Assembly: GCA_025351615.1 (NCBI GenBank)
Contig: JANXVP010000387.1
Location: 1 to 12,246 of the forward strand
Direction of reading: 5' to 3'
Origin: Ramlibacter sp.
GTDB lineage: Bacteria; Pseudomonadota; Gammaproteobacteria; Burkholderiales; Burkholderiaceae_C
DNA length: 12,246 nt
The notes under the pieces were generated by a model that worked only from the letters and a program-made list of their open reading frames with translations, had not been told where the DNA came from and ran no database searches. The translations under genes were made by a program, and so were the position numbers. How positions within the stretch are numbered: the stretch's first letter is position 1; each line of letters begins with the position of its first letter. Positions 144-12,246 of the stretch are shown here, in pieces.

Positions 144-1871
144 ATGGTCACCATTCAGGACTACCTCTGTGCCGATGCGCCCCCGGACGCCAATCCAATG
201 CCCGGTTTTGCGGCGCTGCCGTCTTCACTCGCAGCGGCGGTACTTCTGGCTTCCTGTGGCGGGGGTTCTGGAGGCGGAGATGTTGCTGCGCCGGTGTCGG
301 GCACAACGCCTGCGCCGGCGCCAGTTGCCGGCACGCCCGATCCAAAACCGCAGAATCTGTCTGCGAGTGACGCCTCGCGCTTCCTGGCGCAAGCCACACT
401 GGGGGCGGGCAAGAGCGACATCGCGGCAGTGCAGGCCGGCGGTGTGGCGGCATGGATCGACGCGCAATTTGCGATTCCCCAGACCCAGAGCCACTACGAC
501 TGGCTGGTCGCGAAGGGCTACAACGCCGAAACCTTCCGGAACAGCGCAAGCGGCCTGGACAACTCGATCTGGCGCAAGCTGATCGCCAGCCCCGACGCGC
601 TTCGCCAGCGCGTCACGCTGGCACTTTCGGAAATGTGCGTGGTTTCGGTGCTGGGCGTTGCGGCGCCATGGCGGCAGTTCGCGGTCGGCAACTACCTCGA
701 CCTGCTCGAAGCGAACGCCTTCGGCAACTACCGGACCCTGCTGGGGCAGATCTCCCTGAGCACTGCGATGGGGTACTACCTCACGTTCCGCGGCAACGTC
801 AAGGCCAATCCGGTCACCGGCAGCCAGCCCGACGAAAACTATGCGCGCGAGCTGATGCAGCTGATGACCGTCGGCCTGTACAAGCTCAACACGGATGGCA
901 GCGCGCAGGCCGCGGAGACCTACGGGCAGTCCGACGTCAGCGGACTCGCCCGCGTGTTCACCGGCTGGGACCTCGATGTCGCCGGCCTGGCGAGTCCGCT
1001 TCCGCCCGACGTCCATCGCCGGCCGATGGCCCAGGTGGCCAGCCGCTACGAGACTGGCAGCAAGAGCTTCCTGGGAGTCACGGTACCGGCCGGTGCGTCG
1101 GCTGCGGCCGGCCTGGGCACGGCGCTCGACACGCTGTTCGCGCATCCCAACCTGCCGCCCTTCATCAGCCGCCAATTGATCCAGCGGCTGGTCACCAGCA
1201 ATCCGGGCAGTGGCTATGTCGCCCGTGTGGCGGCGATTTTTGCGGACAACGGCGCTGGCGTGCGCGGCGACATGAAGGCGGTGATCCGTGCCATCCTGCT
1301 GGACAGCGATGCACGCAGCGGGGCCAATGCTTCGTCCACCACATTCGGCAAGTTGCGAGAGCCGGTGACGCGCTTCCTGAACTGGGCCCGGGCCTTCAAC
1401 GCAACGTCCAGGGGCGATACCTGGGCAATCAACGACCTGTCCGATCCGGCGACGAAGCTGGGCCAGAGTCCGATGCGCTCGCCTTCCGTCTTCAACTTTT
1501 TCCGACCCGGGTATGTGCCGCCCAACAGCGCGATCGCGGCGCAAGGCCTGACTGCGCCGGAGTTCCAGATCACCACCGAATCGTCGGTCGCGGGATATGT
1601 CAATTTCATGCAGAAGGCGGTGAGCGGCGTCAATGTCGGCGACGTGAAGTCGGACTACGCGACGCTGCTGCCCCTGGCTGCCGATTCACGCGCCCTGCTG
1701 GACGAACTCAACCTGGTGCTCGCGGCCAGCCAGATCCCGGCCGCGACCCTGGGCGTCCTGCAGGCCGCTCTGGATTCCATCCCGGCCACGACCGACACGG
1801 GCAAGCTCAATCGCGTCTGGGCGGGCTTGACCCTGGTGTTGGCGGCGCCCGAATACATCGTCCAGAAATAA
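144..1871 (+). CDS. DUF1800 family protein, probable lipoprotein
   Basis: A 575-residue protein of the DUF1800 family, whose biochemical role is unknown. Residues 31-38 form a hydrophobic run ending in a lipobox, Leu-Ala-Ser-Cys38, followed by a Gly/Ser-rich stretch and a Pro/Ala-rich linker to about residue 70. The conserved domain fills the rest: the family opening ASRFLAQATLG near residue 77, ENYAREL at 231-237 and VFTGW at 271-275. The start at 144 has a good Shine-Dalgarno, AGGAG at 132-136 with a 7-base gap. An ATG at 198 would instead give a conventional 19-residue lipoprotein signal, but without a basic residue. It is read with the DUF1501 gene 9 bases downstream, a pairing often seen in bacteria. 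The family call is secure; membrane anchoring is inferred from the lipobox. Confidence 0.88.
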   Translation: MVTIQDYLCADAPPDANPMPGFAALPSSLAAAVLLASCGGGSGGGDVAAPVSGTTPAPAPVAGTPDPKPQNLSASDASRFLAQATLGAGKSDIAAVQAGGVAAWIDAQFAIPQTQSHYDWLVAKGYNAETFRNSASGLDNSIWRKLIASPDALRQRVTLALSEMCVVSVLGVAAPWRQFAVGNYLDLLEANAFGNYRTLLGQISLSTAMGYYLTFRGNVKANPVTGSQPDENYARELMQLMTVGLYKLNTDGSAQAAETYGQSDVSGLARVFTGWDLDVAGLASPLPPDVHRRPMAQVASRYETGSKSFLGVTVPAGASAAAGLGTALDTLFAHPNLPPFISRQLIQRLVTSNPGSGYVARVAAIFADNGAGVRGDMKAVIRAILLDSDARSGANASSTTFGKLREPVTRFLNWARAFNATSRGDTWAINDLSDPATKLGQSPMRSPSVFNFFRPGYVPPNSAIAAQGLTAPEFQITTESSVAGYVNFMQKAVSGVNVGDVKSDYATLLPLAADSRALLDELNLVLAASQIPAATLGVLQAALDSIPATTDTGKLNRVWAGLTLVLAAPEYIVQK

Positions 1872-1880
1872 GGAGTTGCC

Positions 1881-3287
1881 ATGAACCACTTCCCCACGAT
1901 CCGTCCCGACAACGCCGCGCGCCGGGCCTTCCTGCAGCGTGGAGCCGCCCTGTCGCTGGCAGCCGGCGCTGCGCCCTGGGCGCTCAGCCTCGCCGCGATT
2001 GGAGAGGCCGCCGCGGCAACGGCGACCGACTACAAGGCGCTGGTGTGCGTGTTCCTCTACGGCGGCAACGACTATGCGAACACCCTGGTTTCCTATGACA
2101 GCGCAAGCTACAGCGCCTACCAGGGCTTTCGCGGCAACATCGCGATCGATCGCAACGCACTGGCGGCCACGGTGCTCAATCCGGCGATCCCTTTCGCTGA
2201 CGGCCGCCAGTTCGCCCTCGCGCCGGGCCTGGGACCGCTGGTGCCGCTGTTCGACGCCGGCAAGATGGCTGTGCTGCTGAACGTCGGGACCTTGATCCAG
2301 CCGACCAGCAAGCTGCAGTACACCAACAACTCGGTGCCGTTGCCGCCGAAGCTGTTCTCGCACAACGATCAGCAGTCGTTCTGGCAGTCGTCGTCACCCG
2401 AGGGAGCTGCGTCGGGCTGGGGCGGGCGGATGGGCGACTTGTATGCCGCCGGCAATGGCAACGCCACGTTCACATGCGTCAGCGTCACCGGCAACGCGGT
2501 GTTTCTCTCCGGCAAGAGCGCAGTGCAGTACCAGGTCACGCCGGCCGGACCGGTACCGGTGGCGGGAATCAAGGGCCCGCTGTTCGGCTCCGCCGCCTGC
2601 TCGCAGGCGCTGCAAAACCTGATGACGCAGCCGCGCACCCACCTGTTCGAGAGCGAATACGCGCGGGTTTCCAGCCGGTCGATCGATGCCAACGACCAGC
2701 TCTCCGCCGCGCTTGCAGGCGCCAATGTTGCAACCGCCTTTCCGCCAGGCAACGGTCTGGGAGACCAGCTGAAAATGGTGGCCCGGATGATCGCGGCCCG
2801 TGGCGCCACGGGTGCGAAGCGGCAGGTGTTCTTCGTGTCGCTCGGCGGCTTTGACAACCACGACGGTCTCGCGACGGCGCATCCGGCGCTGATGACCAGT
2901 GTCGGCGATGCGCTCGCCGCTTTCTACCAGGCAACCGTGGACCTGGGCGTGGCCGACCAGGTCACGACCTTCACCGGTTCCGACTTCGGCCGGACACTGG
3001 TCAGCAACAACGACGGGTCGGACCACGGTTGGGGCAACATGCACTTCGTGCTTGGGGGCCAGGTGCAGGGCAAGTCGTATGTCGGCAGCGCTCCGACGCT
3101 GGCCAACAACGGGCCGGACGATGTCGGGCAGGGGCGCTTGCTGCCGGCCATTGCGGTGGACCAGCTGGCTTCGACCCTAGCGACCTGGTTCGGTGTCTCG
3201 CCCACGGACCAGACCAGCGTGTTGCCCAATCTGGGCAACTACAGCGCGCGGGATCTCGGGTTCATGTCGGCAAAAGCTGCCGCCTGA
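1881..3287 (+). CDS. DUF1501 family protein, Tat-exported
   Basis: A 468-residue member of the DUF1501 family, which is related in fold to alkaline phosphatases and sulfatases but has no settled substrate. The N-terminus carries a twin-arginine signal (ARRAFLQRG from residue 13, then a hydrophobic Ala/Leu-rich stretch to about residue 47), so the protein is probably folded before export to the periplasm. Family landmarks are the YGGND motif around residues 60-64, SHNDQQSFW from residue 160, GGFDNHDG at 322-329, and Asp368-Phe-Gly-Arg with Asp381-His-Gly-Trp. These Asp/His clusters are where metal ligands would be expected. AAGGAG at 1870-1875 lies 5 bases before the ATG and overlaps the stop of the DUF1800 gene, so the two genes form an operon and probably act together in the envelope. 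Substrate unknown. Confidence 0.88.
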   Translation: MNHFPTIRPDNAARRAFLQRGAALSLAAGAAPWALSLAAIGEAAAATATDYKALVCVFLYGGNDYANTLVSYDSASYSAYQGFRGNIAIDRNALAATVLNPAIPFADGRQFALAPGLGPLVPLFDAGKMAVLLNVGTLIQPTSKLQYTNNSVPLPPKLFSHNDQQSFWQSSSPEGAASGWGGRMGDLYAAGNGNATFTCVSVTGNAVFLSGKSAVQYQVTPAGPVPVAGIKGPLFGSAACSQALQNLMTQPRTHLFESEYARVSSRSIDANDQLSAALAGANVATAFPPGNGLGDQLKMVARMIAARGATGAKRQVFFVSLGGFDNHDGLATAHPALMTSVGDALAAFYQATVDLGVADQVTTFTGSDFGRTLVSNNDGSDHGWGNMHFVLGGQVQGKSYVGSAPTLANNGPDDVGQGRLLPAIAVDQLASTLATWFGVSPTDQTSVLPNLGNYSARDLGFMSAKAAA

Positions 3288-3664
3288 GGACTCGCCGAAG
3301 GGGGCGCCGCAGACGAAGCGGAGCACGCGTTTTCCAGCGGGCTGTGACGGGATGAAAAAGCCCGAGGCAGCAGGCCGTGAAACCTGCTGGCGATGTCGAA
3401 CAGGGCCTCGCGCGCCTTCGCTTCACCCTGCAGTGCCGCCAGGACGACCATGAGGTCGGCCCGGAGGTACCACAACTCCTGCAGGTCTTGGGCCGACTCG
3501 ATCCTGCGAGCGATGCCCAGCGCGGCGACCGCGACAGGCCGCCCCAAGGCTGCGTTCATGGATCGCCGGATGTCTGCCATCGCGTCCTCCAGGGCCGGCG
3601 TTGCCTGCGACCCTGCGCCAATCACGCTACAGATGCTGCCAAGCGTCGAGTTCCAGATGCGCAT
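3239..3664 (-). CDS. Hypothetical protein, overlapping the DUF1501 gene tail to tail
   Basis: A 141-residue protein that I do not recognise. It is likely real: a clear Shine-Dalgarno GAGGA lies 6 bases before the ATG, and residues 1-100 have balanced composition with helical, amphipathic character (for example ALEDAMADIRRSM and RRIESAQDLQELWYLRADLM), unlike the Arg/Pro-rich shadow frames nearby. No signal peptide or membrane span is evident. From about residue 102 the sequence turns into a low-complexity Ser/Ala/Pro tail whose last 16 codons run into the 3' end of the convergent DUF1501 gene (3239-3287). That tail may be a read-through extension after loss of an earlier stop. The helical body could suggest a small cytosolic scaffold or phasin-like protein, but this is only a guess. 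Confidence 0.6.
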   Translation of the reverse strand: MRIWNSTLGSICSVIGAGSQATPALEDAMADIRRSMNAALGRPVAVAALGIARRIESAQDLQELWYLRADLMVVLAALQGEAKAREALFDIASRFHGLLPRAFSSRHSPLENACSASSAAPPSASPQAAAFADMNPRSRAL

Positions 3665-3792
3665 GCTGTGTCCTCGGTGAATGTTTGTCGAGCGGGTCCA
3701 GCATCGCAGGGAGCGGCCGACGCGTGTGTGATGCAGTGGGGGACTCCTGCGGAGTTAGTTCACCGAAAATGGAAGGCGAGAGAAAGAAACCA

Positions 3793-3972
3793 ATGGACCT
3801 GAATCCCGCCGGCCTCCTGATCGCCGCAGTGGCGTTTGCCATCGCCTTCGGCGTGGCGAAGCTCATCACCCGGGGCAAGCGCCGGCGCGAAAGCGAAAGG
3901 CAACGACAGGTCGAGCGGAAGCCGGAGAGTCGCCAGGTGCGGCGGACGCGGGAGCGCCGTACCGGCCGTTAG
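3793..3972 (+). CDS. Small single-pass membrane protein with basic tail
   Basis: A 59-residue ORF: a hydrophobic segment at residues 6-24 (PAGLLIAAVAFAIAFGVAKL) followed by a very basic tail of about 33 residues rich in Arg, Lys, Glu and Gln. This predicts one membrane helix with the tail in the cytoplasm by the positive-inside rule. An in-frame ATG at 3769 would add eight residues, including two more lysines. Neither start has a strong Shine-Dalgarno; GGAG at 3751-3754 lies 14 bases before the upstream ATG. The Arg-rich tail in a high-GC genome leaves some chance of a spurious ORF, but the membrane segment argues for a gene. It is transcribed away from the minus-strand gene ending at 3664 and is followed by the dyad at 3993-4021. 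Function unknown. Confidence 0.5.
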   Translation: MDLNPAGLLIAAVAFAIAFGVAKLITRGKRRRESERQRQVERKPESRQVRRTRERRTGR

Positions 3973-3992
3973 GGATGGTCTACGCGCGCGTC

Positions 3993-4021
3993 CTACCCCC
4001 TGTCAAACATGACAGGGGTAG
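3993..4021. repeat. Strong intergenic inverted repeat (terminator-like or operator)
   Basis: CCCCTGTCA at 3997-4005 and TGACAGGGG at 4010-4018 are perfect inverted copies separated by AACA. Beyond one unpaired C, CTA and TAG extend the pairing to 3993-4021, giving 12 base pairs. It lies 21 bases after the stop of the small membrane protein gene and about 220 bases before the binding-protein gene. No T-run follows on either strand, so it is not a classical intrinsic terminator. It could be a Rho-associated 3' hairpin or an operator. The rest of 3973-4241 holds no gene or clear promoter that I can support. Confidence 0.55.
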
Positions 4022-4241
4022 CGCCGACCTTGCCCGCTTGTGATTCCTTTTCCCCTTTCAAGGCGTGCTCTGGGACTGGCTTTGATGCTCCTGTATTCAT
4101 AGCGCATCTCTAACAGCCCGGTCTGGAAACAAAGCGTAATAAGCGCGAAAGAGGAGACTTCGTCGGTTGAGTCAGGAGCGCGGCCGCGCGAATACTGTGG
4201 CATCAGGCGGCCCTTCCGTGCCTGTCACCGCAGGAGTTTTC

Positions 4242-5372
4242 ATGAAGCGCAGAATTTTTCTCAACGGCAGCGGCTCCTTTGCGCTCGCGGCTGCAGTCTC
4301 CGCTCCTTGGAGTGGCGGGGTTCACGCTTCGGCGCCCGTCGTGCTGGGTCAATCGGCGGCACTGACTGGACCGCAAGCGGGCTTCGGCTCCGCCCTGCGC
4401 GATGGCATCCAGGCGGCGCTGCAGGCTGCCAACCGCGCTGGCGGCGTCGGCGGCCGGCAGGTCACCCTGCTGTCGCTCGACGACCAGGGAGACAAGGCGA
4501 GGACCGAGGCCAACGTGGCGGCACTCGTTGCCAACCGCCATGTGGTGGGGATGACGGGCTTCACCACCCGCCCTTGCTCCGAAGCCGCCGCGCTGATGGC
4601 GGCGAGTCATGGCATCGCGCTGGTCGGCGCTTTCTCGGGCACGCCGCTGTTGTACGGACCCAAGGCGGCAACCACGTTCACCACCCGCGCGAGCTACGAG
4701 CGCGAGCTGGAGGCGATCGTGCAGCACTACCGCTTCCTCGGCGCGGAGCGGTTCGGCTTTGCGCACCTGGAGGACGCCCGTTCCACCAACGTGCCCCTGC
4801 TCGAATCCATTCTCGGGCGCCTCGGCGGCAAGTTGACGGTGACGGCCGGCGTGGACCGGAAGGGACCGGCCATGAATGCGGCGGCCATCAAGACGCTGGA
4901 AGCGAACAAGCCCGAGGTGTTGATCATCCTGGCCAACAACGCGCCGCTGACGGGCTTGCTGCGCGACTACGCGCCGCGCACGCTGGTGCTCCCGAAGATG
5001 GTGATCTCCTTCGTCGATCGGGAAAAGCTGCTGGCGGACCTGGGCAAGGACGCTGCGGGCGTCGGCTTCAGCGTCGTGGTGCCTGAATACACCAGGGAGA
5101 AATACAGCGTCGTACGCAGCTTCGTGCCGCTGGCGCGCGAGATGAAGGTCGCCGTGACCCCGGTCTCGCTGGAAGGCTACATCACGGGACTGGCCGTGCT
5201 GGAAGGCTTGCGCGAGTCGAGGGCGGAGAGCCGCACCGGATTCATCGAAGGCATGTCCCGGGTCAGCGCGCTCGACCTCGGTTACACCGCGATCCGCTTC
5301 AGCCGCAGCGAAAGAACGGGGTCGCGTTTCGTGGATTTGTCGCTCGCTTCGCGCACGGCCGGCCTGGTCTGA
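4242..5372 (+). CDS. ABC transporter periplasmic substrate-binding protein (branched-chain amino acid type)
   Basis: A 376-residue periplasmic binding protein of the Leu/Ile/Val-binding type (Peripla_BP_6). It has an N-terminal signal with two arginines (KRRIFL, residues 2-7) and a hydrophobic stretch to about residue 30, so export by Sec or Tat is possible. The mature part begins with the family signature GQSAALTGPQAGFG and continues with AANRAGGVGGRQV and a DDQGD motif before the second strand. The ATG at 4242 is chosen because AGGAG at 4232-4236 lies 5 bases upstream and because it puts the signal peptide at the N-terminus. A TTG at 4167 would place 25 polar residues ahead of the signal. 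No permease or ATPase gene is nearby, so it must borrow a transporter encoded elsewhere or act as a sensor. The dioxygenase gene starts 9 bases downstream. Ligand unknown; amino acids, amides or aromatic acids are all seen in this family. Confidence 0.88.
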   Translation: MKRRIFLNGSGSFALAAAVSAPWSGGVHASAPVVLGQSAALTGPQAGFGSALRDGIQAALQAANRAGGVGGRQVTLLSLDDQGDKARTEANVAALVANRHVVGMTGFTTRPCSEAAALMAASHGIALVGAFSGTPLLYGPKAATTFTTRASYERELEAIVQHYRFLGAERFGFAHLEDARSTNVPLLESILGRLGGKLTVTAGVDRKGPAMNAAAIKTLEANKPEVLIILANNAPLTGLLRDYAPRTLVLPKMVISFVDREKLLADLGKDAAGVGFSVVVPEYTREKYSVVRSFVPLAREMKVAVTPVSLEGYITGLAVLEGLRESRAESRTGFIEGMSRVSALDLGYTAIRFSRSERTGSRFVDLSLASRTAGLV

Positions 5373-5381
5373 GGAGTTTCG

Positions 5382-6260
5382 ATGTCGATCCATTTTTCTC
5401 CCATCACCCCCGCGCTGGGTGCGGCGATCCAGGGCATTTCGCTGGCGACCATCGACTCCGCCCAGTTCGACGCGCTGTATCGCATCTGGCAGAAGCACCA
5501 TGTCGTGGTCCTGCGCGGGCAGGCGCTGACCAATCCCCAGTTCGAACGTTTCTCGGCGATGCTTGGCGAGCTGGACCCCCCGCCCAACCAGGGGGCGGGG
5601 CGCAAGAGCGTGCCGGGGCATGCCAACCTGTACGTCGTGTCTAACCGGAAAAACGGCGCCGGCGAGCCGCTCGGTGCGCTCGGTGACGGCGAGGCCCTTT
5701 GGCACACGGACATGTCGTACCTGGCGCGGCCGCCGTTCGCATCGATGTTGTGGGCGATCGAACTGCCGGAGTCGGGCGGGGATACCTGTTTCGCGAGCAT
5801 GCCCGCGGCACTGCGCTCCATGCCTGATGCACTGGTCGAGCGCATCGGGCGGCTGGCGATCAAGCATGACGGCACCTATGACAGCGCCGGTTTCGTCCGC
5901 AAGGGAATGTCGCCGAACGACGACCCGATGGCCTCGGTGGGCACCACCCATCCAATCGTGATCGAGCAGCCGGAAACCGGCGAACACACGCTCTACCTCG
6001 GACGCCGGCGCAACGCTTACATCCCGGGGCTTTCGCTGCCGGAGTCGGAAGCGCTGCTCGATCGGGTCTGGCAGTATGCGACGGCGCCGCAGGTGGTCTT
6101 GCGCCACCAATGGCGGCTGGGCGACGTGGTGTTGTGGAACAACCTGACCACGATGCACCGGCGCGACGCCTTTCCCGCGGACCAGTTTCGCACCCTGCAT
6201 CGTTCGCAGATCAAGGGCAGGTACGTCCCCACCGCCACAGCGCAAAAGGAGGCCGCATGA
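5382..6260 (+). CDS. TauD/TfdA family Fe(II)/2-oxoglutarate-dependent dioxygenase
   Basis: A 292-residue enzyme of the TauD/TfdA family, cytoplasmic, with no signal peptide. These enzymes couple decarboxylation of 2-oxoglutarate to hydroxylation of a substrate, often a sulfonate, phenoxyacid or other carboxylate. The iron triad is complete: His108 and Asp110 in WHTDMSY, and His259 in TTMHRRDAF. Arg270 and Arg274 follow the distal His by 11 and 15 residues, the spacing of Arg266 and Arg270 after His255 in E. coli TauD, where they contact 2-oxoglutarate and the taurine sulfonate. An acidic substrate is therefore plausible. The gene sits between two periplasmic binding protein genes, with a 9-base gap upstream and a 4-base ATGA overlap downstream, so the three are probably co-translated. 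The true substrate cannot be read from sequence. Confidence 0.9.
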   Translation: MSIHFSPITPALGAAIQGISLATIDSAQFDALYRIWQKHHVVVLRGQALTNPQFERFSAMLGELDPPPNQGAGRKSVPGHANLYVVSNRKNGAGEPLGALGDGEALWHTDMSYLARPPFASMLWAIELPESGGDTCFASMPAALRSMPDALVERIGRLAIKHDGTYDSAGFVRKGMSPNDDPMASVGTTHPIVIEQPETGEHTLYLGRRRNAYIPGLSLPESEALLDRVWQYATAPQVVLRHQWRLGDVVLWNNLTTMHRRDAFPADQFRTLHRSQIKGRYVPTATAQKEAA

Positions 6261-7264
6261 TCTCGCGCCGCAACTTCAGCACGGCTTTGGCCGCTGGCCC
6301 GCTGGGCCTCGCGGTCGCGGCGCGCGCCGAGGAAAGTTATCCGAACCGTCCGATCCGGCTGTTGGTGGGCCTGGCCCCGGGCGGCATCGCCGACATCACG
6401 GCGCGGTTCATCGCGCCGCGCCTGGGCGAGATCCTCGGCAGGCAGGTGATCGTGGAAAACCGAACTGGCGCCGGCGGCGCCATCGCCACCCGCACGGTCG
6501 CCGCCAGCGCGCCCGATGGCTACACGCTGCTGATGGCGTTCGACGGCACGCACGTGACGCTGCCGGCGGCCAATCCGGGAATCGGCTTCGAGCCACTGGT
6601 CGATTTCGCGATGATCGGCAAGGTCGTCGACGCGCCGGTGATGATCACGGCGCACCCGAGTTTTCCGGCCCGCGACTTCGGCGAGTTCATAGCCCTCTCG
6701 CGCCAGTCCATCCGCTCCGGATCCGGCACCCGGGTGTACGACTACGGCACATCGGGCGTGGCGAGCACCGGACACCTCACGATGGAACTGCTCAAGCAAC
6801 GCTTTGGCCTCTATGCAGTGCACATTCCCTACCGAGGAGGAGGGGACGCGCGCGCCCAGGTGCTCGGGCGCCAGATTCCGATGATGCTGGCGGCGGTGCC
6901 CGCCACCTCCGGGGACGTCCGTGCCGGCAGCCTCAAAGGGCTGGCAGTGACCAGCGCCCAGCGGTCGCCGGTCCTGCCCGGCGTGCCCACCCTGGCCGAG
7001 CTGGGATACAAGGAAATCGCCGGGCTCGACATCAATTCCTGGGTCGGCTTGATGGCGCCTGCGCGCACGCCCCCTGCGATCGTGGGAAAACTGGATGCCG
7101 CATTGCGCCAGACGATCGCCACCGACGACGTGCACGCACGCCTGCTCAACGCGGGATCTACGCCTGTCCAGAGTTCGCCCGAGCTGTTCAAGGCACAGAT
7201 CGCGGGCGACCTGGCACGCTGGAAAGGCGTGATCCGCGACGCGCACCTGCGGCTCGAAGCCTGA
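6257..7264 (+). CDS. Bug/TctC family tripartite tricarboxylate transporter substrate-binding protein
   Basis: A 335-residue periplasmic binding protein of the Bug (TctC) family, which is greatly expanded in Burkholderiales and binds carboxylates and related small molecules. A twin-arginine-like signal (SRRNFSTAL, residues 3-11) precedes a cleavage region near AARAEE. Family landmarks follow in order: YPNRPIRLLVGLAPGG, VIVENRTGAGG, APDGYTLL, VHIPYRGGG, LAVTSAQRSPVLPGVPT and WVGLMAP. The start at 6257 is chosen for the strong AAGGAGG at 6246-6252 and the ATGA overlap with the dioxygenase stop. The membrane partners TctA and TctB are absent, which is common for Bug proteins. With the ABC-type binding protein and dioxygenase it forms an operon that probably captures and oxidises one acidic compound. 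Confidence 0.93.
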   Translation: MISRRNFSTALAAGPLGLAVAARAEESYPNRPIRLLVGLAPGGIADITARFIAPRLGEILGRQVIVENRTGAGGAIATRTVAASAPDGYTLLMAFDGTHVTLPAANPGIGFEPLVDFAMIGKVVDAPVMITAHPSFPARDFGEFIALSRQSIRSGSGTRVYDYGTSGVASTGHLTMELLKQRFGLYAVHIPYRGGGDARAQVLGRQIPMMLAAVPATSGDVRAGSLKGLAVTSAQRSPVLPGVPTLAELGYKEIAGLDINSWVGLMAPARTPPAIVGKLDAALRQTIATDDVHARLLNAGSTPVQSSPELFKAQIAGDLARWKGVIRDAHLRLEA

Positions 7265-7293: not shown

Positions 7294-7653
7294 CTAGAAG
7301 CCGATCGCCAGCAGGCTGGCGGCGGCAATCAGCGTGATCGCCATCGCGCCGCCATAGCAAACCAGCTTGGCGCCGGCGCCGGTCCGGATGCCGACGTCAT
7401 GCAGGCTGTGGTAAATGCGGTGGACCGCGTGCCACGCGAACAGCATGATGACGGCGAAGATGAAGCCCTTGCCGATCCAGTGCTGCGCAAACGCCAGCAC
7501 GCGCGGATAGGCCATGAACTGCGGCCCGAAGGGCCAGGCCAGCGGAGCTGCGATCCCGGTGAGGAACACCAGCATGGTCCCGAACAGCGCAGACAACATG
7601 CCACCGGCGCCGAACAGCAGCCAGAAGATCGGGGCGTTGGAGCGCTTCTTCAT
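7294..7653 (-). CDS. frdD: Fumarate reductase membrane anchor subunit D
   Basis: A 119-residue integral membrane protein that with FrdC anchors the FrdAB dimer to the inner membrane and forms the quinol site. It closely follows E. coli FrdD: APIFWLLFGAGGM near the N-terminus, YPRVLAFAQHWIG at 49-61, and HRIYHSLHDVGI from residue 78. His78 aligns with the E. coli FrdD histidine (His80 in the usual numbering) known to matter for quinol oxidation. Three membrane helices are expected at about 13-38, 58-80 and 96-117. The start at 7653 is the Met that aligns with the family N-terminus, and its ATG overlaps the frdC stop as ATGA. It is the last gene of the operon and ends 29 bases from the convergent Bug gene, with no good intrinsic terminator between them. 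Confidence 0.93.
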   Translation of the reverse strand: MKKRSNAPIFWLLFGAGGMLSALFGTMLVFLTGIAAPLAWPFGPQFMAYPRVLAFAQHWIGKGFIFAVIMLFAWHAVHRIYHSLHDVGIRTGAGAKLVCYGGAMAITLIAAASLLAIGF

Positions 7654-8060
7654 GGCGCCAGCCACCACGCGAGCGCCAGCAGGGCGATCGATGCGGCGAC
7701 GGTCGCCGTCCAACCGGTGCGCATGATCGCTGCCTGCGTCACCCTGCGCCCGCCAATGAACAACATCGGCATGGTCTTGGGCATGATCTCGAACCAGCTT
7801 TGTGCATGGACCACCATCGCCAGCAGCAGCACGAGGTGCAGCAGGATCGACCAGGGTGACCGCAGTGCCGCCAGCCATCCGTTCCATGCCGCTTCACCCT
7901 GTGCCAGCCGGAGCACGCCGATCAGCAACACCATGGCGTACAAGAGCACCGCGAACGCCGTGGCTTCGCGTGCCATGTAGCGCATGAAGAAAGGGTCGGT
8001 GCGCCACCAGCCCTGCATGGGCCGCACATAGCCTCGGCGCGAAGTTGGCTTGCCGTGCAT
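7650..8060 (-). CDS. frdC: Fumarate reductase membrane anchor subunit C
   Basis: A 136-residue integral membrane subunit of quinol:fumarate reductase, homologous to E. coli FrdC over its whole length. YVRPM at 11-15 and the RYMAREATA segment match the E. coli start. Glu32, Ala35, His85 and Trp89 are the counterparts of E. coli Glu29, Ala32, His82 and Trp86, residues placed at the quinol site by mutagenesis. Three hydrophobic segments are visible (about 33-52, 67-84 and 113-134). Like E. coli FrdCD this is the heme-free anchor type, not the single-chain diheme cytochrome b of Wolinella-type enzymes. The ATG overlaps the frdB stop by one base (TGATG), and the gene's own stop overlaps frdD. Confidence 0.93.
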   Translation of the reverse strand: MHGKPTSRRGYVRPMQGWWRTDPFFMRYMAREATAFAVLLYAMVLLIGVLRLAQGEAAWNGWLAALRSPWSILLHLVLLLAMVVHAQSWFEIMPKTMPMLFIGGRRVTQAAIMRTGWTATVAASIALLALAWWLAP

Positions 8061-8809
8061 CACTCGGATCCTTTCGGGGCCAGGAATCGCAAAAAGTAAT
8101 CCTTCGCGCTGTTCATCTTGTTCTGGTTGATCGCGTTTGCCGGGTCGACGTGTTTGGGACAGACGACCGAGCAGTAGCCCACCGCGGTGCAGGTCCAGAC
8201 GCCTTCTTCGGTGTTGATGAACTCCATGCGCTCGGCACGGCCGCCGTCGCGCGAATCCGCGTTGTAGCGATGCAATAGCGCCAGCACCCCGGGCCCGGTG
8301 AAATCCGGATCGAGGCCGAACTGCGGGCAGGCGGAATAGCACAGCATGCAGTTGATGCACGAGCTGTACTGCTCGAACTGCGCCAGCTGGTGCGGTGTCT
8401 GCAGGTATTCGCCCTGGGCCAGCGTCCGCGGTTCCTTGGGAATGAGGTAAGGCTTGATGGCCTGGAGCTTTTCGATGAAAGGTTCGACGCTCACCACCAG
8501 GTCACGCTCGATCGGAAAGTGTGTCAACGCCTCGACCCGCACCGGGCCGGGGTGCAAATCGCGCAGGAAGGTCTGGCAGGACAACCTTGGCTTGCCGTCG
8601 ACCATCATGCCGCAGCTGCCGCAGATCGCCATGCGGCACGACCAGCGAAAGCTCAGCGTGCCATCGAGTTCGTCCTTGATGTATTGCAGGCCCTGCAGCA
8701 CCGACATGTCGTCGCTGTAGGACACCTCATAGCTTTGCCACACCGGCCGGCTTTCTTCCTCCGGCCGGAAGCGCAGCACCTGGATCTCGATGCGTTGGCC
8801 GTCATGCAT
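8060..8809 (-). CDS. frdB: Fumarate reductase iron-sulfur subunit B
   Basis: A 249-residue electron-transfer subunit carrying electrons from the quinol site to FAD in FrdA on the cytoplasmic face. All three cluster motifs are intact. Cys58, Cys63, Cys66 and Cys78 bind [2Fe-2S] (SCRMAICGSCG), at the same numbers as in E. coli FrdB. Cys151, Cys154, Cys157 and Cys217 bind [4Fe-4S]. Cys161, Cys207 and Cys213 bind [3Fe-4S], the latter two in CTAVGYCSVVCPKHVDP. The similarity to E. coli FrdB (for example FPIERDLVV, ACPQFGL, HRYNADSRD) and the FrdC/FrdD-type anchors identify it as fumarate reductase rather than succinate dehydrogenase. The start overlaps the last 8 bases of frdA, suggesting coupled translation and equal stoichiometry. 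Confidence 0.96.
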   Translation of the reverse strand: MHDGQRIEIQVLRFRPEEESRPVWQSYEVSYSDDMSVLQGLQYIKDELDGTLSFRWSCRMAICGSCGMMVDGKPRLSCQTFLRDLHPGPVRVEALTHFPIERDLVVSVEPFIEKLQAIKPYLIPKEPRTLAQGEYLQTPHQLAQFEQYSSCINCMLCYSACPQFGLDPDFTGPGVLALLHRYNADSRDGGRAERMEFINTEEGVWTCTAVGYCSVVCPKHVDPANAINQNKMNSAKDYFLRFLAPKGSE

Positions 8810-10592
8810 GGACTGGCTCCTTGGCTTGCCGGTCCGCTTCTTCGCCAGCGGCGCCGTAAGCGCGTGTTCCCGGTTCCGACGTGGTGATTTTCACTGGACC
8901 ATAGTCGATGCGAGGGGCATCGGCCCCGCTGTAGCGCGCCAGCGAATGCTTGAGAAAATTGGCGTCGTCACGCTGTTCGAAGCCGTCCAGCCGCTGGTGC
9001 GAGCCGCGCGACTCGCGACGTTCCAGCGCCGAATGCGCCATCGCCTGCGCCACGTCCAGCAGGTAGCCGAGCTCGATGGCCAGCAGCCACTCGGTATTCC
9101 AGCCGCGGGAATGGTCATCGAGCTGCACGCTGCGGTAGCGCTGCTTCAGTTCGGCCAGCTTGTCGCAAGTGGTTTGGATGGCGGTGGCGGTGCGGTAGAT
9201 GCCGCAACCATCTTCCATGCTTTTGGCCATTTCCTTGCGCAGCGTGGCAATGCGCTCGTGGCCGTCGGTCCTGGCCACGATCCCCTGCGCGCGGCGCGCG
9301 GCTTCGTTGGCGAGCATGCCGATCCGGGTTGGGTCGCCGGGCGCTCTGGTCCTGGCGTACGCTGCCGCCTCGGTACCCGCCACCTTCCCGAACACCAGCA
9401 GCTCGGTCAGCGAGTTGGAGCCGAGCCGATTGGCGCCATGGATGCCGACACTGGAGCATTCGCCGGCCGAGAAGAGGCCGGGCAGCGTCGACGCGGTATG
9501 ACCGTCCGCGATGATGCCGCCCATGGTGTAGTGGACTGCCGGCAGGACCGGGATCGGCTCCCTGGCCGGATCGACGCCGAGGTATTCGACCGCGAGTTCG
9601 TAGATCTGCGGCAAGCGCTCGCGCAGCGTCTGTTCGCCCAGGTGCCGCAGGTCGAGGTACACGACGTCACCATGGGGCCCCTTGATCGTTCTGCCTTTCT
9701 GTTTCTCGTGCCAGAAGGCCTGGCTCAGGCGGTCGCGCGGGCCCAGCTCCATGGCCTTGTTGCGCGGCGTCGGCCCGGCGGGCCCGAGGCCGTAGTCCTG
9801 CAGGTAACGGTAGCCGTCCTTGTTCACCAGAAAGCCGCCCTCGCCACGACAGGCTTCCGTGAACAGCAGCCCGGTTCCGGGCATGCAGGTTGGGTGGTAC
9901 TGCACGAATTCCATGTCCCGCAACGGCACGCCGTGCCGGTAGGCCAGGGCCATGCCGTCGCCGGTCACGATGCCGCCGTTGGTGTTTTCGCGGAACACCC
10001 GCCCGGCGCCACCGGTGGCGATGATCACCGACCTGGCCTGGATCAGCCGGAACTCGCCGGTGCCGATTTCGACGCAGACCACGCCTTGAACCTGCCCGTC
10101 GTCGACCACCAGGTCGACGCAGAAGTGCTCGTCGAAGCGCCGGATCGAGGGGTATTTGATCGAAGTCTGGAACAGCGTGTGCAGCATGTGGAAGCCGGTT
10201 TTGTCGGCTGCGAACCAGGTGCGCTCGATCTTCATGCCGCCAAAGGCACGCACGTTGGCGCGGCCATCGGCCTTGCGGCTCCAGGGGCAGCCCCAGTGCT
10301 CCATCTGCACCATCTCCTCAAGCGCCTGGCCGACGAAGAACTCGACCACGTCCTGCTCGCAGAGCCAGTCGCCGCCGCCGACTGTGTCGTGGAAGTGAGC
10401 ATCCAGGCTGTCGTGGGCTTGCGTTACAGCGGCGGCCCCGCCTTCGGCTGCGACGGTGTGGCTGCGCATCGGATAGACCTTGGAGATCAGGGCGATGGTG
10501 AGCTTGGGGTCCGCCTCGGCCACTGCGATGGCAGCCCGCAGGCCGGCGCCGCCGGCACCGACAATCACGACATCTGCGTGGAAGGTTTCCAT
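8802..10592 (-). CDS. frdA: Fumarate reductase flavoprotein subunit A
   Basis: A 596-residue catalytic subunit that reduces fumarate to succinate, close in length to E. coli FrdA (602). The N-terminal dinucleotide-binding motif VIVGAGGAGLRAA is at residues 9-21. His45 in MRSHTVAAEGG is the covalent FAD attachment histidine. Further conserved blocks are the FHDTVGGGDWLCEQ region, FGGMKIERTWFAADKTGFH, TGGAGRVFREN, FVQYHPT, ELGPRDRLSQAF, HYTMGGI and HGANRLGSNSLTELLVFG, which contain the substrate-binding His and Arg residues. The C-terminal domain keeps MEDGCGIYRT and ESRGSHQR. The gene starts 10 bases after the rquA stop with GAGGG as Shine-Dalgarno, and it overlaps frdB. Placement right behind rquA suggests it works with rhodoquinol. 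Reversal to succinate oxidation is possible for this enzyme class. Confidence 0.96.
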   Translation of the reverse strand: METFHADVVIVGAGGAGLRAAIAVAEADPKLTIALISKVYPMRSHTVAAEGGAAAVTQAHDSLDAHFHDTVGGGDWLCEQDVVEFFVGQALEEMVQMEHWGCPWSRKADGRANVRAFGGMKIERTWFAADKTGFHMLHTLFQTSIKYPSIRRFDEHFCVDLVVDDGQVQGVVCVEIGTGEFRLIQARSVIIATGGAGRVFRENTNGGIVTGDGMALAYRHGVPLRDMEFVQYHPTCMPGTGLLFTEACRGEGGFLVNKDGYRYLQDYGLGPAGPTPRNKAMELGPRDRLSQAFWHEKQKGRTIKGPHGDVVYLDLRHLGEQTLRERLPQIYELAVEYLGVDPAREPIPVLPAVHYTMGGIIADGHTASTLPGLFSAGECSSVGIHGANRLGSNSLTELLVFGKVAGTEAAAYARTRAPGDPTRIGMLANEAARRAQGIVARTDGHERIATLRKEMAKSMEDGCGIYRTATAIQTTCDKLAELKQRYRSVQLDDHSRGWNTEWLLAIELGYLLDVAQAMAHSALERRESRGSHQRLDGFEQRDDANFLKHSLARYSGADAPRIDYGPVKITTSEPGTRAYGAAGEEADRQAKEPVHA

Positions 10593-10602
10593 GCTCTTGC
10601 CC

Positions 10603-11337
10603 TCAGCGGACCAGGACCAGTTTCTGGTACAGCCCGCCGTAGTAAGTGAGCTTCTCGATCGACGCCGGACGTGTGCCGGCCGGCAGGAAGTCCTCGACCT
10701 CGCGCTGCCACAGGTCCATCGCGTACGGTTCGAGCTTGCGGAACACGCCGGTCATCAACAACCGCAGCGGATGCATCCTGACCGGCCGGTGGTAATCCAC
10801 GATCACTATCTTGCCGCCCGGCCTGACCACGCGCATGGCCTCGGACAGCGTGGCCCGGCGCACCTGCTCCGGTTGCTCGTGCAGCAGGAAGAACAGCAGC
10901 GCCTGGTCGTAGCTTGCGTCGGCAGCGGCAAGCGACGATGAATCGCATTGCACGAGCGCGACGCGTGGGTCGGCGGGTAGCTTGCCGGCGAGGTTCTTCA
11001 ACTGGATGGGCAGGATGTCGACGATGTCCAGGCTGGCATCCGGCGCCAGCCTTTGCTGCAGCTTCGGTGTGAGATTGCCGTACACGCAGGCGATCTGCAG
11101 CGTCTTGCCGGTCACCTCGGCGCCGAGATCGGCCAGTGCCGCGTCGCGCAGGCGCCCGTAGTTGCCGAACAGGATCAGGTTGACCAGCCATTCGCGCTCG
11201 AAGAGCTGGACCGCCTTGGGATGCACATAGGCCCACCAGTAGACCTGCTCCAGGTAGCGGGGGATGACCGGAGCGCGGGGCACCGGCCGTGCCAGTGAAG
11301 GCAGCGCCGCTGCGACGCCAAAAGCAGGAGGTGTCAT
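10603..11337 (-). CDS. rquA: RquA, rhodoquinone biosynthesis enzyme (SAM-dependent, methyltransferase fold)
   Basis: A 244-residue member of the RquA family, which converts ubiquinone to rhodoquinone by replacing a ring methoxy group with an amino group; published work on Rhodospirillum rubrum RquA indicates that SAM supplies the nitrogen. Recognisable family blocks are QVYWWAYVHPKAV at 31-43, FEREWLVNLILFGN at 46-59, LQIACVYGNLTPKL at 80-93, DILPIQLKNL at 107-116, LLFFLLHEQP at 147-156, PGGKIVIVDYHRP at 173-185 and TYYGGLYQKLV at 231-241. The usual Gly-rich SAM motif of class I methyltransferases is replaced by CVYG, typical of RquA and unlike UbiE or UbiG. There is no signal peptide; an inner-membrane-associated cytoplasmic site is expected. 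Its ATG overlaps the stop of the cytochrome gene (ATGA), and frdA follows 10 bases after its stop. Identification is from memory of the family, without alignment. Confidence 0.88.
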   Translation of the reverse strand: MTPPAFGVAAALPSLARPVPRAPVIPRYLEQVYWWAYVHPKAVQLFEREWLVNLILFGNYGRLRDAALADLGAEVTGKTLQIACVYGNLTPKLQQRLAPDASLDIVDILPIQLKNLAGKLPADPRVALVQCDSSSLAAADASYDQALLFFLLHEQPEQVRRATLSEAMRVVRPGGKIVIVDYHRPVRMHPLRLLMTGVFRKLEPYAMDLWQREVEDFLPAGTRPASIEKLTYYGGLYQKLVLVR

Positions 11338-11915
11338 TCGTCGGGGTCCTTGTATTCCCTGGGCAGCTGGTGGGCCACGCCCTTGTGGCAGTCGATGCAG
11401 GTCTTGCCTGCCTGTCGGGCCGCGATGTGCTTGTCGTAGACCGTTTTTTTCTGGACGTCCGGGCTCATCGCTTCGAAGCTGTGGCAGTTGCGGCATTCGC
11501 GCGAGTCGCTGGCCTTCATCTTGTCCCACTGGTGCTGCGCCATCTGCATCCGCCGCGCCTCGAACTTCTCGGGCGTGTTCACGCTGCCCATGAGCTCGTG
11601 GTACACGTCGGACGAGGCCCCGATCTTGGCCATCACCTTGTGCGCCCAGTCGCGCGGCACATGGCAGTCGGAGCACACAGCGCGCACCCCTGTCCGGTTC
11701 GCGTAATGCACGGTGGTCTTGTATTCCTTGAACGAGTTGTCCAGCATCGTGTGGCACCCGGTGCAGAACTCCAGCGAGTTGGTCGCTTCCATCGCGGTGT
11801 GGAAGCCGCCCCAGAACAACACGCCGCTGACAAATCCGACGACAAGGATCGCCAGGAGCGAATATTTCGCGCTCGGCCGCGCCAAGAAATTCCAGCAGCG
11901 CCGCAAGGTGCTCAC
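11334..11915 (-). CDS. NapC/NirT family tetraheme c-type cytochrome (quinol dehydrogenase)
   Basis: A 193-residue membrane-anchored tetraheme cytochrome c of the NapC/NirT/CymA group, which oxidises quinols in the inner membrane and passes electrons to periplasmic partners. After a short cytoplasmic start (RRCWNFLARPSAKYS) comes one membrane helix at about 19-38. The periplasmic domain has four CXXCH heme sites beginning at Cys51, Cys81, Cys141 and Cys173. Family text such as EATNSLEFCTGCH and CIDCHKGVAH is clear. I chose GTG at 11915 because it places the membrane helix as in the family and overlaps the stop of a leader ORF (GTGA); GTG at 11921 is an alternative. Upstream codons to 12149 are polar and do not resemble the family. 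Its partner is not in the window: fumarate, nitrate or metal reductases all use such proteins. Confidence 0.9.
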   Translation of the reverse strand: MSTLRRCWNFLARPSAKYSLLAILVVGFVSGVLFWGGFHTAMEATNSLEFCTGCHTMLDNSFKEYKTTVHYANRTGVRAVCSDCHVPRDWAHKVMAKIGASSDVYHELMGSVNTPEKFEARRMQMAQHQWDKMKASDSRECRNCHSFEAMSPDVQKKTVYDKHIAARQAGKTCIDCHKGVAHQLPREYKDPDE

Positions 11916-11965
11916 AGCCACAGGATCCACTGGATCAGGTTTTTCTTCAGGGGTGCGGTTTTCAT
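11912..11965 (-). CDS. 17-codon leader ORF coupled to the cytochrome gene
   Basis: ATG at 11965 opens MKTAPLKKNLIQWILWL, whose TGA stop overlaps the GTG start of the tetraheme cytochrome as GTGA. The cytochrome GTG has no good Shine-Dalgarno of its own, and a small hairpin GATCC-ACT-GGATC (11924-11936) lies just ahead of it, so reinitiation after this ORF would explain its translation. The peptide has a basic N-terminal half and a Trp/Leu/Ile-rich end, and could also be a tiny membrane-associated protein in its own right. Its Shine-Dalgarno is weak (GGAA). Too short to recognise. Confidence 0.45.
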   Translation of the reverse strand: MKTAPLKKNLIQWILWL

Positions 11966-12050: not shown

Positions 12051-12064
12051 TTGACATAGATCAA
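12051..12064. promoter_or_regulatory. FNR/ANR-type binding site controlling the cytochrome-rquA-frd operon
   Basis: TTGACATAGATCAA matches the FNR consensus TTGAT-N4-ATCAA at nine of ten defined positions. Its centre is about 92 bases upstream of the leader ORF start on the minus strand. If it acts at -41.5, transcription would start near 12016, and a weak -10-like TAGACA at 12031-12026 is close to the expected place. It also lies 70 bases before the plus-strand ORF at 12128, so it could serve both directions. An oxygen-sensing activator fits the anaerobic functions encoded downstream. CRP/FNR relatives such as DNR bind nearly the same sequence. Confidence 0.65.
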
Positions 12065-12127: not shown

Positions 12128-12235
12128 ATGACTTCTGTGAACGGTCCAAGCCGACTGACCCGCGCGATTGCCGCTTTGGCTGCGGTGAGCTTCGCGCTGC
12201 CCAAGGACATGCCCCTGATCAAGGAAAGCAAATGA
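12128..12235 (+). CDS. Small ORF with hydrophobic segment, divergent from the frd operon
   Basis: A 35-codon ORF with basic residues (Arg9, Arg12) before a hydrophobic run at about 13-24 and a charged end KDMPLIKESK, resembling a short signal-like or single-pass membrane peptide. Its stop overlaps the ATG of the next gene as ATGA, which supports it being translated. No good Shine-Dalgarno precedes the ATG at 12128. I do not recognise it. It is transcribed divergently from the cytochrome-rquA-frd operon and may share the FNR-type site. Confidence 0.4.
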   Translation: MTSVNGPSRLTRAIAALAAVSFALPKDMPLIKESK

Positions 12236-12246
12236 AAACAGTCCGC
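12232..12246 (+). CDS. Start of a gene cut off by the window end
   Basis: ATG at 12232 has a good Shine-Dalgarno, AAGGA at 12221-12225, and overlaps the stop of the small ORF as ATGA. Only five codons (MKTVR) are inside the window, so its function cannot be judged. Confidence 0.45.

Follow-up and report, generated by a model that had tools for sequence, protein, structure and literature searches.

The question raised by the stretch of DNA considered here, a contig of 12,246 bases from a Ramlibacter sp. (termed the window throughout, and C397 where contigs have to be told apart), is why the gene for a NapC-type tetraheme quinol dehydrogenase should be packed into one operon with rquA, the predicted gene for rhodoquinone (RQ) biosynthesis, and with frdABCD, the genes for a fumarate reductase. 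The window is an entire contig of G000, a metagenome-assembled genome (MAG) of 3.86 Mb in 583 contigs, 91.1% complete and with 2.65% contamination. To judge from comparisons with related genomes, rquA repeatedly shares its surroundings with genes for outer-membrane conduits, tetraheme quinol dehydrogenases and fumarate reductase, the hosts being ones in which no menaquinone route was detected. The answer considered probable is that the operon forms part of an anaerobic respiratory module organised around its own low-potential quinone, in which RQ links a NapC-MtrAB conduit with fumarate respiration.

The operon extends from position 11915 to position 7294 of the minus strand, with intergenic gaps or overlaps of 10 bases at most:

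napC, 11334..11915, minus strand: GTG start, 193 amino acids (aa), four CXXCH motifs (CTGCH, CSDCH, CRNCH, CIDCH); NapC/NirT-family tetraheme quinol dehydrogenase, anchored in the membrane
rquA, 10603..11337, minus strand: 244 aa, 4-base overlap with napC; predicted RQ biosynthesis enzyme (ubiquinone to rhodoquinone)
frdA, 8802..10592, minus strand: 10-base gap after rquA; fumarate reductase flavoprotein (NF006686, 1036.8 bits, cut-off 854)
frdB, 8060..8809, minus strand: overlap of 8 with frdA; fumarate reductase iron-sulfur subunit (NF009051, 396.5 bits, cut-off 333)
frdC, 7650..8060, minus strand: overlap of 1 with frdB; membrane anchor (PF02300, 147.8 bits, cut-off 24.2)
frdD, 7294..7653, minus strand: overlap of 4 with frdC; membrane anchor (NF003977, 129.4 bits, cut-off 60)

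The operon is real rather than a product of chance, and both the packing of its genes and the family models bore out the contention of an earlier note on this DNA that RquA and FrdABCD share one operon; the gene order given there stood from napC to frdD, and only its additional 'leader', taken as a leader peptide, probably did not (see below). RquA scored 296.4 bits against the curated equivalog model NF038261 (cut-off 175). Among 22 aligned sequences Asp107 was invariant and Asp132 nearly so (at least 90%), and the spacing of 25 residues between them equals that of Asp118 and Asp143, the S-adenosylmethionine-site aspartates of R. rubrum RquA according to passages of PMC9814641, a match by spacing rather than by alignment to the R. 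rubrum protein. The four adjacent frd genes, including those for both the FrdC and FrdD anchors, specify a quinol:fumarate reductase: FrdA fell below the SdhA equivalog cut-off (562.2 against 727.35 bits), while FrdC, under its NCBIfam cut-off (105.3 against 143 bits), was far over that of Pfam. When FrdC was aligned with its E. coli equivalent (1kf6_C) over some 127 positions, an Arg-Glu pair coincided with an E. coli Arg-Glu pair which we take to be residues 28-29 and to have a role with low-potential quinol. E. coli FrdABCD (1kf6), with the same four subunits and two anchors, uses menaquinol; the expected donor here would be rhodoquinol.

The probable partner of NapC is most likely encoded across the right-hand end of the window. 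The last 30 bases of C397 (12217-12246) are identical to positions 4276-4247, reversed, of contig C159, and this 30-mer occurs at just two sites in the genome, both of them contig ends; as a control, the same 30-mer read backwards gave 0 occurrences. On C159 (4,276 bases) lie the genes for a decaheme cytochrome of the MtrA type (349 aa, 10 CXXCH motifs) and, after it, an MtrB/PioB porin (801 aa). The two contigs most likely join, with napC and mtrAB divergent across a spacer of 316 bases:

FNR-type box TTGACATAGATCAA, 12051..12064, no strand assigned: in the napC-mtrA divergent spacer, at most 1 mismatch to TTGAT-N4-ATCAA
mtrA, first five codons, 12232..12246, plus strand: start codon inside the 30-base overlap, the gene continuing on C159

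The five mtrA codons at the window's edge had escaped the earlier note. MtrA and MtrB scored 271.7 and 356.1 bits against TIGR03508 and TIGR03509 (cut-offs 192.2 and 240.05), and the sole PDB sequences that they matched belong to a single entry, 6r2q, as its chains A and B (chain A being labelled 'Cystathionine beta-synthase' there), which we take to be the Shewanella baltica MtrCAB complex.

The affinities of NapC itself point in the same direction. The protein, the sole NapC/NirT member found in its genome, scored 241.7 bits against PF03264 (Pfam cut-off 24.1) and 270 bits against the NCBIfam napC_nirT model, under that model's cut-off of 310.6, and its Lys97 and Asp103 align with the lysine and aspartate of NrfH that presumably contribute to the quinol pocket of that enzyme. 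When 43 NapC proteins of the genomes examined here were placed in a tree, produced by a quick search and containing no CymA or ImoA rows, the window protein fell into a seven-row set (SH-aLRT 95) with those of loci L105, L108, L080, L042, L266 and L255. In L105, L108 and L080 napC directly precedes rquA and is itself preceded by mtrAB, while in L042 and L266 it lies beside mtrB, at a distance of 90 bases in L266 (from genome G716). Because mtrAB is most likely adjacent and NapC groups with NapC proteins encoded beside mtrAB, it is most likely a conduit-associated quinol dehydrogenase of the CymA/ImoA type, the comparison with CymA and ImoA being one of kind alone. The earlier note had regarded the cytochrome as an unusual third partner: a NapC-type tetraheme protein in the operon it remains, though not an isolated oddity, given its mtrAB-linked relatives and the likely adjoining mtrAB.

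To place the locus in a wider context, RquA, MtrB and FrdC were sought in one and the same set of 399 genomes from the host's family, and were over cut-off in 30, 33 and 23 genomes, respectively. MtrB was present in 22 of the 30 rquA-bearing genomes as opposed to 11 of the 369 others (Fisher p ~1e-21), and FrdC in 21/30 as opposed to 2/369 (p ~7e-26; the two being G721 and G746), FrdC thus being nearly confined to rquA-bearing genomes in this sample (21/23). Counted by genus, which handles shared ancestry only partly, the corresponding figures were 15/20 and 5/121 for MtrB (p ~3e-12), and 15/20 and 1/121 for FrdC (p ~4e-15). By hand counts from coordinates, 17 of the 21 genomes with both genes have FrdC no more than 10 kb from rquA, and MtrB is equally close in 11 of 22, plus the window via its adjoining contig, several of the others lying on separate contigs of fragmented genomes. 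FrdC was not detected at E <= 1e-6 in three genomes with both rquA and MtrB (G512, G587 and G785, the last 87% complete). Five congeners from the window's genus, each reported as 100% complete, yielded no RquA (E 1e-30), MtrB (1e-20), FrdC (1e-6) or NapC (1e-10), a distribution that fits acquisition of the set by the host species; the transferable unit envisaged in the earlier note gains from this sporadic presence.

Menaquinone routes were sought through the markers MenD and MqnA/D in 48 genomes. MenD was over cut-off in none of the 30 rquA-bearing genomes, and MqnA/D in none of those 30 or of all 48; the window genome, with MenD matches below cut-off only and no MqnA/D, thus conforms to the menaquinone-less host that the earlier note had supposed. 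The sole MenD-positive genome, G592, possesses MtrB and lacks rquA. Matches to MenD at E <= 1e-10 occurred in 47 of the 48 genomes (none in G785); those below cut-off probably represent other thiamine-diphosphate enzymes and were not counted as a menaquinone route. SdhA was over cut-off in 26 of the 30 rquA-bearing genomes, so fumarate reductase is usually additional to succinate dehydrogenase; none was found in the window's own genome, through either loss or an assembly gap. The fumarate-related part of the earlier interpretation is well supported by this genomic context.

Gene order was followed in loci from relatives, consisting of the best 80 of 493 loci by closeness of RquA together with stretches around RquA matches in genomes of the order and family. 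From 149 non-redundant loci, 111 (window included) scoring at least 150 bits to the window RquA were retained and 38 weaker ones dropped; contig ends truncate many loci, and only 60 had 8 kb on both sides. Gene maps built from a codon-position GC (guanine plus cytosine) score sometimes placed a start late and overlooked rquA in 11 loci; they were therefore used for order only and all counts were made by tblastn, conduit genes being identified by curated models on representatives and by similarity elsewhere. On this basis frdA follows rquA on the same strand within 600 bases in 32 of 111 loci, frdD likewise precedes it in 14, and frd genes face it from the opposite strand in four. Where rquA and frdA occur in that order, mtrB often stands shortly before them; Ramlibacter lithotrophicus and Caenimonas koreensis are among the relatives with mtr, rquA and frd together. 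Window not counted, mtrA, mtrB or mtrC lies within 10 kb of rquA in 35 of the 111; in 23 loci mtrB shares the strand of rquA and begins or ends no more than 1.5 kb upstream of it, and NapC is encoded within 10 kb in 16. Direct precedence of rquA by napC was recorded in the window and in L080, L105 and L108, the latter three having mtrAB before napC in the same direction and no frd near, and mtr genes are divergent beside rquA in L042, L056 and L059.

The same loci provided a context for the FNR-type box, the only window site with at most one mismatch to what we take to be the FNR consensus, 0.07 being expected in mononucleotide shuffles. A better control was the comparison of upstream with other positions in the 110 relatives' loci: such boxes occurred at 0.456 per kb in the region 30-600 bases upstream of rquA and at 0.065 per kb elsewhere, a 7-fold difference in density, with 28 of the 110 loci possessing an upstream box and 82 having none; among the 32 rquA-frdA loci, 10 possessed one.

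In the mechanism proposed, RquA would convert part of the ubiquinone pool into RQ, which dehydrogenases such as complex I would reduce to rhodoquinol. Rhodoquinol would then have two outlets, one being FrdABCD, with the reduction of fumarate, and the other the tetraheme NapC, which would exchange electrons across the periplasm with the divergently encoded MtrAB and hence with acceptors or donors outside the cell; of the two directions raised in the earlier note, outward flow through NapC-MtrAB is slightly favoured. The FNR-type box between the two arms may serve to switch both on at low oxygen. We infer the enzyme activity, RQ production, the use of rhodoquinol by NapC and the regulation, as we do the contig join. 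Published potentials are compatible with this scheme: values of +100, -63 and -80 mV are given for ubiquinone, RQ and menaquinone in passages of PMC6529003, and ImoA, a tetraheme protein of NapC's kind, is described in passages of PMC13390432 as working between 0 and -400 mV and accepting electrons from the menaquinone pool in Shewanella, its own host having ubiquinone genes only. Because ImoA titrates over that range, rhodoquinol would be a fitting donor for ImoA-like hemes, and ubiquinol a poor one.

Each component has a known counterpart. In Shewanella, CymA and MtrCAB likewise combine a tetraheme quinol dehydrogenase with a decaheme-porin outer-membrane conduit fed from a low-potential quinone, and the location of cymA upstream of menECHD (noted in passages of PMC8805035) parallels that of napC before rquA; however, the Shewanella system relies on menaquinone and FccA, whereas here the expected quinone would be RQ, made from ubiquinone by one enzyme, and the fumarate reductase is FrdABCD. 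The Mto pathway of Sideroxydans lithotrophicus, as described in passages of PMC13390432, resembles the present system, by description, in its MtrAB-type conduit, NapC-family tetraheme protein (ImoA), monoheme cytochrome (PmcA/MtoD) and lack of menaquinone genes, but its proposed flow is inward, and the window adds rquA and frdABCD. A further counterpart is the mtrCAB clusters of group 4 that Baker et al. (2022; PMC8805035) described from Burkholderiales, which according to passages of that paper carry CymA homologues, ccm and frdABCD as passengers, frdABCD being absent from mtr-lacking relatives, and which spread horizontally. By way of contrast, the window system has mtrAB with no mtrC found, and includes rquA, neither rquA nor rhodoquinone occurring in the main text of that paper; moreover, a recipient of mtrCAB and cymA is there said to need menaquinone genes, for which the hosts examined here show no route. 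Finally, Stairs et al. (2018; PMC5953543) report that many bacteria have rquA within 15 genes of those for cytochromes and for complex I, II or III; the passages concerned name no Mtr conduit or tetraheme partner, whereas here rquA is in a tight operon with the genes for FrdABCD and NapC.

Several results weigh against a module in which RQ serves both outlets. The MAG is fragmented (583 contigs, 91.1% complete), and the join to mtrAB depends upon an overlap of just 30 bases. In the three other loci where napC immediately precedes rquA, mtrAB is oriented as they are rather than divergently. No match to the MtrC/OmcA model TIGR03507 was obtained at E <= 1e-15 in G000 (91.1% complete), and the conduit, with MtrA and MtrB both recognised, was therefore filed as MtrAB-type rather than MtrCAB. 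The earlier note had looked to conservation of the order cytochrome-rquA-frdABCD: rquA-frdA does recur, in 31 of the 110 other loci, but the exact order napC-rquA-frdABCD was not seen in any of the 110 and was recorded in the window alone. The seven-row NapC set includes L255 from G592, the genome with MtrB and MenD and without rquA. NapC was not found in three of the 22 genomes with both rquA and MtrB (G405, G415 and G446), and eight of the 30 rquA-bearing genomes lack MtrB over cut-off (G423, G516, G542, G598, G599, G615, G733 and G744). Conversely, because 11 of the 33 MtrB-bearing genomes have no rquA over cut-off (G424, G493, G547, G555, G592, G627, G668, G695, G730, G731 and G754), such porins can exist without RQ; among these G592 has MenD, G555 a fragment of rquA at a contig end and G730 is 61% complete, while G547, G627, G695 and G754 form one genus (g190) with MtrB and without rquA, MtrC or NapC, and G424 and G731, both near-complete (99%), simply lack rquA. 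In a broader profile, moreover, Stairs et al. (2018), as quoted in passages of PMC6529003, found no gene co-occurring with rquA.

The alternative that survives best, itself a second reading in the earlier note and held here as a tentative possibility, is that of electron uptake, in which MtrAB and NapC would import electrons from Fe(II), Mn(II) or another cell into RQ and thence to FrdABCD and fumarate, or into reverse flow, in the manner of Mto or Pio systems. MtrAB and NapC with no MtrC found is the make-up of Mto-type uptake systems, although the missing MtrC could be an assembly gap. An FNR-type box and a low-potential quinone would better suit the disposal of electrons under anoxia, and little energy would be gained by sending external electrons via RQ to fumarate; neither enzyme of that route is known to pump. 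In favour of uptake, passages of PMC8805035 describe expression of mtrCAB by Ramlibacter lithotrophicus RBP-2 during co-culture on Mn(II), and allow that FrdABCD might support both directions.

It is rather doubtful that RquA serves FrdABCD alone, NapC and mtrAB being neighbours that use ubiquinone or another donor. The association between rquA and FrdC is the tightest of those recorded, no mtr gene was found in the available stretch, short in some cases, of 15 of the 32 rquA-frdA loci (the window among them), and passages of Stairs et al. (2018; PMC5953543) already tie rquA to complex II. Against this, frd is missing from the vicinity in 17 of the 35 mtr-bearing rquA loci (of which L042, L059 and L197 end within 1.4 kb downstream of rquA), rquA immediately follows napC in three loci that likewise show no frd nearby, and G512 and G587 possess RquA and MtrB with no FrdC match.

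The proposition that NapC feeds a periplasmic reductase (for nitrate, nitrite or trimethylamine N-oxide) encoded elsewhere, as the partners for which the NapC/NirT family is named might suggest, appears improbable for a protein that is the only NapC/NirT member found in its genome, groups with conduit-linked NapC proteins and is most likely encoded beside mtrAB. That the mtrAB link is an artefact, the 30-base overlap being an assembly-graph repeat or C159 a contaminant of a MAG with 583 contigs and 2.65% contamination, is highly improbable given that the 30-mer is present at these two contig ends alone (backwards control 0) and holds the mtrA start, and that relatives have mtr genes beside rquA, divergent in L042, L056 and L059.

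The preferred reading, in which RQ links the conduit with fumarate respiration, brings together parts of known kinds: passages of Baker et al. (2022) already have frdABCD beside Burkholderiales mtrCAB, and those of Stairs et al. (2018) rquA near complex II, whereas the combination with RQ appears undescribed in the literature searched. No paper joining RQ to Mtr or other extracellular conduits was found in the open-licence literature, as judged mostly from search listings. One candidate naming both rquA and a tetraheme protein (PMC10715153) was rejected, its relevant passages concerning photosynthetic cytochromes rather than conduits. Rhodoferax ferrireducens, an Fe(III) reducer with MtrCAB, is named as an RQ producer in a passage of PMC6529003, a statement that needs checking because, of the two references cited there, one dates from 1984, before the species was described, and the other is that description.

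A broader proposal, for and against which the evidence is about evenly balanced, is that Burkholderiales without menaquinone have RQ as the dedicated quinone for their outer-membrane conduits, with mtr genes, a tetraheme quinol dehydrogenase, rquA and frdABCD constituting a mobile, self-sufficient set by which a ubiquinone-only aerobe would gain extracellular electron exchange and fumarate respiration at once. Were this so, RQ, known mainly for fumarate respiration, would also be a quinone of extracellular electron transfer, and a one-gene quinone supply would help to explain the movement of such clusters between ubiquinone-only bacteria. Two questions in print become testable: whether gain of a low-potential quinone accompanied gain of fumarate reductase, as asked in a passage of PMC11707229, and how a conduit with a CymA-like partner functions when its host has no menaquinone, which arises from passages of PMC8805035 and PMC13390432 and to which rquA inside the clusters offers an answer.

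The short open reading frame (ORF) that precedes napC was reassessed as follows:

17-codon ORF MKTAPLKKNLIQWILWL, 11912..11965, minus strand: C-terminus KNLIQWIL plus two residues, probable remnant of the 3' end of a gene for a monoheme cytochrome c

Similar C-termini (KNLVQWIL, VRNVIQWIL and others) characterise a 44-member cluster of monoheme cytochromes c from the relatives' loci, some rows being copies of one genome, and the end of the ORF was matched by 26 of the 44 at E <= 0.05 (best 2.8e-4, 446-base target) over about eight residues only. An intact gene of this cluster lies directly 5' of napC in L084, and gene maps show the like in L058, L069, L078, L183, L185 and L197. It is therefore likely, though not proven, that the ORF is the last part of such a gene, and the leader-peptide reading was set aside in view of this C-terminal likeness.

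In a tree of MtrB proteins, in which rows L263 (G493, without rquA) and L266 derive from NapC loci and from which change counts were not used, the window genome's MtrB grouped with that of L087; since the wider ten-row set mixes genomes with and without rquA, MtrB type alone is no guide to the presence of rquA. L087 (Herbaspirillum sp. ST 5-3) is itself an unusually large conduit cluster: rquA is surrounded there by monoheme cytochromes and by four pairs resembling mtrA-mtrB, with no frd.

Other arrangements were also recorded among the relatives. Genes from the same three protein clusters follow rquA or frdD in L033, L049, L050 and L190, one of them being CcmB (Pfam, checked in L033); some copies may thus carry haem-attachment machinery too, as passages of PMC8805035 have for mtrCAB. 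In L067, L070, L075, L083, L095 and L114 rquA is followed by the gene for a hemerythrin-domain protein of ~184 aa (domain checked in L067) and is flanked on both sides by FNR-type boxes, and in L081 and L106 a tandem pair of RquA-like genes faces frdDCBA on the other strand. G000 itself encodes a second RquA-like protein (C155, 7008-7643; locus L130) scoring 110 bits, below the cut-off of 175; full-length proteins of this sort, scoring 110-120 bits (E <= 1e-30), are encoded by 14 of the 399 genomes in the family sample, 11 of which also possess RquA over cut-off.

At the far end of C159 (L220), positions 1-549 of the plus strand hold an incomplete coding sequence (182 aa) that converges on mtrB and whose product gave no Pfam or NCBIfam match at E 0.001. 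Within the window, the plus strand from 144 to 7264 carries ordinary flanking genes on the strand opposite to the operon, namely a DUF1800/DUF1501 pair and those for a periplasmic binding protein, a TauD/TfdA dioxygenase and a TctC receptor.

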